Source: Polynucleobacter yangtzensis
GTDB taxonomy: Bacteria > Pseudomonadota > Gammaproteobacteria > Burkholderiales > Burkholderiaceae
Assembly: GCF_001595965.1 (NCBI RefSeq)
Contig: NZ_LOJI01000035.1
Location: 133,770 to 197,769 of the forward strand
Reading direction: 5' to 3'
DNA length: 64,000 bases
Below, in pieces: positions 62,101 through 64,000 of the stretch. Position 1 is the first letter of the stretch. Each line of letters starts with the position of its first letter. A program made the position numbers and the translations under genes. The notes beneath the pieces are model-generated. The model did no database searches. It was not told where the DNA came from and was given only the letters and a program-made list of their open reading frames with translations.

Positions 62101-63648
62101 TTAAGGCGTCATCTGCGCATTGAGCTTGGCCTGACTCGGGTCATGTAACTTGTTCAAGGCTGACAAGTAGGCCTTCGCAGAGGCTGCAATGATGTCCGGA
62201 TCAGTACCCACACCATTCACAATACGGCCACCTTTTGCTAAACGCACGGTCACTTCGCCTTGCGATTGCGTTCCTGAAGTAATCGCATTAACCGAATAAA
62301 GCAACTGTTCTGCTCCACTCTTAGCAATGCCTTCAATAGCATTCAAGCTAGCATCAACTGGACCGTTACCTTCTGCTTCTGAACTAATCTCTTTGTCACC
62401 CATACGGAAAGTCACACGTGACTTAGGTCGCTCACCAGTTTCAGAATGCTGGCTTAAGGAGATAAATTTGTAATGCTCGCCCTCTTCTGCTGCAGCTGAA
62501 TCAGACATGATGGCAATAATATCTTCATCAAAAATCTCAGACTTCTGATCTGCCAAAGCCTTAAAACGAGTAAATGCTTCATTCAAATCAGCCTCAGCCT
62601 CAACCGCAATTCCCAATTCTTGCAAGCGTTGCTTGAAGGCATTGCGACCTGATAACTTGCCCAAAACGATCTTGTTTGCTGACCAACCCACATCTTCTGC
62701 GCGCATGATTTCATAGGTGTCACGGTTTTTCAAAATACCGTCCTGATGAATCCCTGATGTGTGTGCAAAGGCATTAGCCCCAACCACTGCTTTGTTAGGT
62801 TGAACTACAAAACCCGTAATTTGAGAAACCAACTTTGATGCTGGCACGATTTGGGTAGCATCAATACCGCAAACCATATCAAAGTAATCCTTGCGGGTAC
62901 GCAATGACATCACAATTTCTTCTAATGCAGTATTGCCTGCGCGTTCGCCCAATCCGTTAATCGTGCACTCGATTTGACGAGCTCCGCCGATCTTTACGCC
63001 AGCCAAAGAGTTCGCAACAGCCATACCCAAGTCATTATGGCAATGCACTGACCACACTGCTTTATCTGAGTTTGGCACTCGTGTGCGCAAGGTCTTAATA
63101 AACTCACCATACAACTCAGGGGTTGCGTAACCAACCGTATCTGGAATATTAATGGTGGATGCACCTTCATTAATTACGGCCTCAACGACTCTGCATAAGA
63201 AGTCCATCTCTGAGCGATAACCATCTTCTGCTGAGAACTCAATATCAGCAGCCAAGTTACGCGCAAAACGAATGGAACGCTTAGCTTGCTCCAAAACCTC
63301 CTCTGGGGACATGCGCAACTTCACAGCCATGTGCAATGGGCTCGTTGCCAAGAATGCATGAATGCGCTTAGCATTAGCTGCTTGCAAGGCATCAGCAGCA
63401 CGGGTAATGTCCTTGTCATTGGCTCTAGCGAGTGAGCAAACAATCGAATCTTTGACGGCAGCTGCTACAGCAGAAATAGCCTGGAAGTCACCTTCAGAGC
63501 TAGCAGCAAAACCTGCCTCGATTACATCAACTTTGAGGCGCTCTAATTGACGGGCAATCCGCACTTTTTCGTCTTTAGTCATTGAAGCGCCTGGTGACTG
63601 CTCGCCATCACGTAAGGTGGTATCAAAAATGATTACTTTGTCGCTCAT
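62101..63648 (-). CDS. leuA: 2-isopropylmalate synthase
   Basis: [49 protein letters not shown]; regulatory C-terminal domain. Confidence 0.97.
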
Positions 63649-63701
63649 TACTACTCTCCGGTTTTAAATACTGCTGAACTCATTAATTCAATCTTATAAA
63701 A

Positions 63702-63726
63702 CAAAAACCCCAGCAATTTGCTGGGG
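63702..63726 (-). terminator. Attenuator terminator upstream of leuA
   Basis: Minus strand CCCCAGC AAATT GCTGGGG TTTTTGTTTT, between the leucine-rich leader ORF and the leuA ATG (63648). Confidence 0.88.
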
Positions 63727-63767
63727 CTGGTATGTGGTGGCTAATGAATTTCTTTTATCTCATTAAC

Positions 63768-63839
63768 TCAGGCCTTACCCGCCCCAAGCTTTAGGCTTAG
63801 TGCTAGCAGAAGAAGGCTAGATAAAAGTGGGAAATTCAT
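63768..63839 (-). CDS. leuL: leuA leader peptide (23 aa, leucine-rich)
   Basis: MNFPLLSSLLLLALSLKLGAGKA*, 9 Leu in 23 residues with CTA x3, CTT x4, TTA, CTG codons; upstream of terminator and leuA; alternative ATG at 63845. Confidence 0.85.
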   Translation of the reverse strand: MNFPLLSSLLLLALSLKLGAGKA

Positions 63840-63873
63840 AGTCATAGAATTACTATACCCCAAAATTATGGAA

Positions 63874-64000
63874 TTAGCTAAAACGCTTTCCACTGAGTCG
63901 TTCCCAGGCCCAAATGACGTAGCCGGATATGGAATAGACCACAAACAAGCCAAATAGAGTCAACGGCGGATTCGATGAGATCAAAACAAAAGTGAGGATC
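63874..64000 (-). CDS. pssA: CDP-diacylglycerol-serine O-phosphatidyltransferase, C-terminal fragment
   Basis: Partial frame ILTFVLISSNPPLTLFGLFVVYSISGYVIWAWERLSGKRFS*; PssA-like C-terminus upstream of leuA; truncated by the window. Confidence 0.65.
   Translation of the reverse strand, partial: ILTFVLISSNPPLTLFGLFVVYSISGYVIWAWERLSGKRFS

Follow-up and report, generated by a model that had tools for sequence, protein, structure and literature searches.

A conserved, probably leaderless leader with the features of a leucine transcription attenuator upstream of leuA in Polynucleobacter

Leader peptides translated from leaderless transcripts are known from Streptomyces, Corynebacterium and Sinorhizobium meliloti; the named cases are LeuL1/LeuL2 and TrpL1 of S. 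lividans, IlvL of C. glutamicum and trpL of S. meliloti, and in S. lividans a leaderless Leu leader is also placed before leuA (PMC8079986, PMC11857589, PMC10117765). A different arrangement is the actinobacterial LEU element, which folds as a pseudoknot with a base stem formed between the Leu codons and the Shine-Dalgarno sequence of leuA (Seliverstov 2005, PMC1262725). A leuA attenuator from Betaproteobacteria was not described in any of the papers covered by our literature search, which did not include the main survey (Vitreschak 2004). In the main text of the B. cenocepacia and C. metallidurans papers on TSS and small RNAs, leuA is not mentioned. The abstract of Vitreschak et al. 2004 reportedly covers the gamma- and alpha-proteobacteria.

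The window analysed here is a stretch of 64,000 nucleotides of Polynucleobacter yangtzensis, from a host genome of 2.05 Mb. On its minus strand, a spacer of 225 nt separates pssA from leuA; it contains an ORF rich in Leu codons and an intrinsic terminator with which an antiterminator competes (Table 1). We propose, with a probability of about 0.9, that this spacer carries a classical ribosome-mediated transcription attenuator that would sense charged tRNA-Leu and control leuA. A sequence-only reading of the same DNA had suggested a leucine-responsive attenuator of this kind, and the conservation, covariation and Leu-codon evidence given below supports it. Those features of a classical leu attenuator that can be tested on sequence, namely the leader ORF, the terminator, the antiterminator and the 1:2 hairpin, were all found. 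The Rfam family RF00512 (Leu_leader) gave no match at E<=5 in positions 63300-64000 and none at the gathering score in 18 relatives; a known Rfam family for the leader was rejected, the matches being chance ones below the gathering score.

Table 1. Positions of the leader elements and their neighbours in the window.
Feature	Position	Strand	Remark
pssA end	63874	-	upstream border of spacer
-10 box TATAGT, leader promoter	63852..63857	-	ends 6 nt before ATG 63845
Leader ORF, 25 aa, MTMNFPLLSSLLLLALSLKLGAGKA, stop included in the coordinates	63768..63845	-	probably leaderless
Region 1 (GCACUAAGC), 5' arm of the 1:2 hairpin, within the Leu codons	63795..63803	-	compensatory pairs
Region 2 (GCUUGGGGCGGGU), partner of region 1 (1:2) or region 3 (antiterminator)	63777..63789	-	folding, pair counts
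Inner hairpin GUUAAUGAG...UUCAUUAGC, extends the antiterminator stem, less certain	63740..63767	-	88.6% of cells paired
Region 3 (ACCAGCCCCAGC), antiterminator 3' arm, overlaps the terminator 5' arm	63720..63731	-	folding, pair counts
Intrinsic terminator hairpin (3:4) and U tract	63696..63728	-	hairpin itself 63728-63706
Shine-Dalgarno GGAGAG of leuA	63654..63659	-	SD-like sequence also in 138/144 relatives
leuA, 2-isopropylmalate synthase, gene presumed to be regulated	62101..63648	-	ATG at 63648

The genes ilvI-ilvH-ilvC-psd-pssA-leuA form a same-strand row with leuA last (L153 1136-5172, past the window's end), the names ilvI, ilvH, ilvC, psd and pssA having been assigned by reading the translated ORFs. 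Since psd, ilvC, ilvH and ilvI run in the same direction upstream, the attenuator lies inside an ilvIHC-psd-pssA-leuA row closed by leuA. Blocks for branched-chain amino acids flank the phospholipid genes psd and pssA in this row, and an attenuator at its end would explain a separate tuning of leuA by leucine. Similar leaderless attenuators were sought in the same genome in the upstream regions of trpE, hisG, hom, leuC and pheS and none was seen, nor was one seen on reading the region upstream of ilvI.

The leader ORF had been read from an ATG at 63839 as MNFPLLSSLLLLALSLKLGAGKA, with 9 Leu in 23 codons and three CTA codons. This ORF is present, and at the local Leu frequency a run of 23 codons would contain 9 or more Leu with a probability of about 1.7e-4. 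However, the ATG at 63839 is the second one: an in-frame ATG at 63845, 6 nt upstream, extends the product to 25 aa (MTMNFPLL...), and the spacing from the -10 box to the ATG, which the sequence-only reading had missed, points to 63845 as the start. The TATA.T of the -10 box is invariant in 36 genus sequences. In a set of 131 leaders from several families, whose ORFs were chosen by Leu content only, 89% have a -10-like box ending 6-7 nt before the ATG, as against about 1% for other ATGs, and an SD-like sequence precedes the ORF in 2 of the 131; no Shine-Dalgarno sequence is found before ATG 63845. Because of the 6-7 nt spacing and the lack of a Shine-Dalgarno sequence, the leader mRNA is probably leaderless and starts at ATG 63845. 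From the promoter geometry, transcription should begin at or beside the leader AUG.

The Leu codons of the leader are themselves unusual. In the genus, CTA makes up 32% of the Leu codons of the leaders versus 1.2% of those of leuA, an enrichment of about 30-fold, and outside the genus the shares are 52% and 0.7%. We took leuA as the reference because the long ORFs of the window, over all of which CTA reaches 9.4%, include spurious antisense ORFs. Much of the Leu in the leader is thus encoded by a rare codon, and this should sharpen the response to leucine. The peptide itself looks dispensable to judge from its variation. Its position 19 (K/Q/A/S/T/M/E/R) changes along with the hairpin loop, and in one relative (L024, genome G369) a one-base deletion in the 1:2 loop gives the C-terminus RLGRVRPELMR with all helices remaining, a frameshift that can be read as a natural test suggesting that the peptide C-terminus is not needed. 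In L015, L027, L031, L040, L042, L044 and L077, an insertion of 12 nt (LPSGKLLLALS) lies right before the Leu run, in the form CCTAGCGGGAAACTG.

The terminator hairpin that had been noted before leuA is there, followed by its T tract, and so is the competing pairing, in which region 2 and region 3 form an antiterminator of 11 bp with one bulge and one mismatch, exactly as had been described. What did not survive is the idea of a two-state switch that needs no region-1 hairpin. A 1:2 hairpin, GCACUAAGC-CUAAA-GCUUGGGGC (63803-63781), is conserved with compensatory changes and competes with the antiterminator, so the design is the classical 1:2 / 2:3 / 3:4 one and not a two-state one. Among 73 unique genus sequences nearly all pairs of this hairpin are kept around 18 different loops, with changes from A-U to G-C (5 and 6 sequences), from C-G to U-A (6) and from G-C to A-U/G-U (6), although such hand-registered pair counts lean towards the structure used for registering.

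With a loop of 4 nt in place of 5, the LGSVHA clade is out of register by one base in the full alignment, A1, whose covariation counts therefore understate the pairing; A1 was replaced by helix-anchored counts and by an alignment A2 from which this clade was left out. For the 1:2 hairpin together with the terminator, 99.3% of the cells in A2 are paired, compared with at most 58% when the helices are slid, and their covariation score was reached by 0 of 500 shuffles. Counted over 35 genus sequences, the antiterminator 2:3 helix has 99.7% and the 3:4 terminator 99.4% of its cells paired. The antiterminator with the inner hairpin reaches 94.8%, compared with at most 49% when slid. Covariation in A2 was not above shuffles for the antiterminator, because the helix is almost invariant there, and it was not above shuffles for the inner hairpin; conservation of the antiterminator overlaps with coding and terminator constraint. 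In the LGSVHA clade, an antiterminator C-G pair is replaced by U-A and the partner in the terminator goes from G-U to A-U. The stretch from region 2 to region 3 folds at -28.4 kcal/mol (z = -4.0), with none of 200 shuffles as good. A terminator scan taken alone was not beyond chance (3 found versus 2.2 expected); what decides that the arrangement is real is its conservation within the genus.

Conservation of the Leu codons and covariation in relatives, a check that had been proposed beforehand, were both found, the latter as the compensatory changes of the 1:2 hairpin. The leader ORF and terminator are present at 77 of 77 genus leuA loci, a number in which some genomes are counted twice because they came from two collections. 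Of 151 genus genomes searched with a covariance model spanning regions 1 to 4, 146 contain the element, as do 116 of the 117 good ones (>=90% complete, <=5% contaminated); in the genome studied here the model gives a single strong match (E 1e-29), the next being at 0.01. Because the sequences are related, these counts do not amount to independent events. Among 120 genomes sampled at the level of the order, the covariance model reaches few outside the genus. When 73 loci from outside the genus were inspected with leuA as the anchor, 39 showed similar leaders with terminators, most of them in Comamonadaceae, as did nine further loci of Cupriavidus/Ralstonia type, for which the genus assignment is inferred. 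In 17 of the 39 loci the antiterminator duplex beats shuffled sequences (<=5/100), and in the others it is no better. A similar arrangement is present in much of the wider Burkholderiales. In one genome (G094), the leuA match at C1:1364254-1365783, downstream of region L053, contains in-frame stops (6 TGA, 1 TAG and 1 TAA), and because of these the gene may be broken or frameshifted; the attenuator upstream of it looks intact.

Taken together, the elements suggest that leucine supply would be sensed through the speed of the ribosome on a tiny Leu-rich peptide. The predicted 5' end of the transcript is the A of the leader AUG (63845) or the nucleotide beside it, such that a ribosome could load directly on the 5' AUG. 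With ample Leu-tRNA, the ribosome would reach the UGA and cover region 2, whereby the 3:4 terminator could form and transcription would end near 63700. With scarce Leu-tRNA, the ribosome would stall in the Leu run (CTT CTT CTG CTA. CTA. CTA) and block region 1, leaving region 2 free to pair with region 3, and RNA polymerase would continue into leuA. If there were no translation, the 1:2 hairpin would form and the terminator would win. Folding of the leader in these states agrees with the switching logic proposed earlier: a modelled ribosome placed on codons 11-14 of 25, within the Leu run, leaves region 2 free, whereas at the stop codon it covers region 2 and the terminator alone remains. Before the 3' arm of the terminator is made, the antiterminator stands alone at about -28 kcal/mol in the modelled folds. 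For the finished leader RNA, full thermodynamic folding favours the terminator in all modelled states, the stalled ribosome included, and for this reason we infer that the decision must be taken during transcription, as in known attenuators.

The terminator follows pssA, the gene directly preceding leuA, where a plain terminator that merely closes the ilvI-ilvH-ilvC-psd-pssA operon would also stand, and in either role it would halt read-through from pssA. The Leu-rich ORF would then be there by chance or as a relic. We consider this highly improbable, since the leader ORF, the Leu run, the CTA bias, the -10 spacing and the 1:2 hairpin are kept across species and persist although the surrounding sequence differs between them. 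Just as improbable, in our view, is an arrest peptide whose conserved C-terminus, LGAGKA, would stall the ribosome when a small molecule is sensed. Within the genus no other part of the peptide is as conserved as LGAGKA, but the same stretch encodes region 2, it becomes LGSVHA where the RNA pairing covaries, and leaders of other families have HGRRQ, VGTRA or LARLPR at this end; the frameshift in L024, which destroys the C-terminus yet keeps the helices, argues in the same direction.

The probable leaderless layout raises another option, as it would be the same as that of rnTrpL (PMC10117765): the terminated leader RNA or its peptide (about 150 nt and 25 aa) might act mainly in trans, like rnTrpL/peTrpL of Sinorhizobium meliloti. 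Here the peptide sequence and the RNA loops vary freely and the helices and Leu codons alone are kept, so we give a main role in trans a very small chance, scarcely above that of the plain terminator or the arrest peptide. Moreover, action in trans would add to attenuation by the leader and not replace it.

A distinct type of leader was seen upstream of leuA in sequences of Burkholderia/Paraburkholderia type (L066, L067, L072, L154-L158 and L160-L164). The leader (ending in LLSLLAGAPLRALALARLPR before the stop) and the -10 spacing are kept in this type, with the Leu codons folding into a palindromic hairpin. Downstream there is a conserved hairpin, AGCGUCGCC..CGGUGGCGCG, with no U tract, and in most of these sequences region 2 pairs over 9-11 bp with the 3' arm of that hairpin and not with the 5' arm. 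A hairpin that lacks a U tract points to a non-intrinsic output, which may be Rho, pausing or another. In L118, L133 and L134 (Oxalobacteraceae type), a Leu-rich leader ORF follows a -10 box and no terminator with a U tract was found before leuA. As a tentative view, to which we give somewhat less than an even chance, one leaderless leucine sensor may have been kept before leuA over much of the Burkholderiales with its output part exchanged, the Polynucleobacter, Cupriavidus/Ralstonia and Comamonadaceae types then using an intrinsic terminator. These types form a set of natural variants in which the coupling of a leader sensor to different outputs can be studied.

As to its significance, the Polynucleobacter leader would represent a complete, covariation-supported leucine attenuator of the Betaproteobacteria, absent from Rfam, in a freshwater genus of small genomes, and it suggests a common leaderless design across the Burkholderiales. 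That layout is not new in kind, given the examples from Streptomyces, Corynebacterium and S. meliloti. In the actinobacterial and S. meliloti leaders the ORF begins at or next to the 5' end of the transcript, the position that the promoter geometry suggests for our leader, and a Shine-Dalgarno sequence is lacking, as it is in ours; they differ from our leader in peptide, RNA, and phylum or class, and LeuL1 of S. lividans, unlike the Polynucleobacter leader, has no typical terminator. With the LEU element it shares a Leu-rich leader before leuA; by the description of that element, however, the Polynucleobacter leader differs in that its Leu codons find their partners inside the leader itself and a terminator would be the output, and the leader's own pairs explain the spacer region. 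In design the Polynucleobacter leader resembles the enterobacterial leu/trp/his attenuators, with which it has in common an amino-acid-rich leader ORF, the 1:2 / 2:3 / 3:4 hairpins, an intrinsic terminator and a downstream biosynthetic gene, but unlike them it lies before a leuA that ends an ilv-psd-pssA gene row and is probably leaderless.
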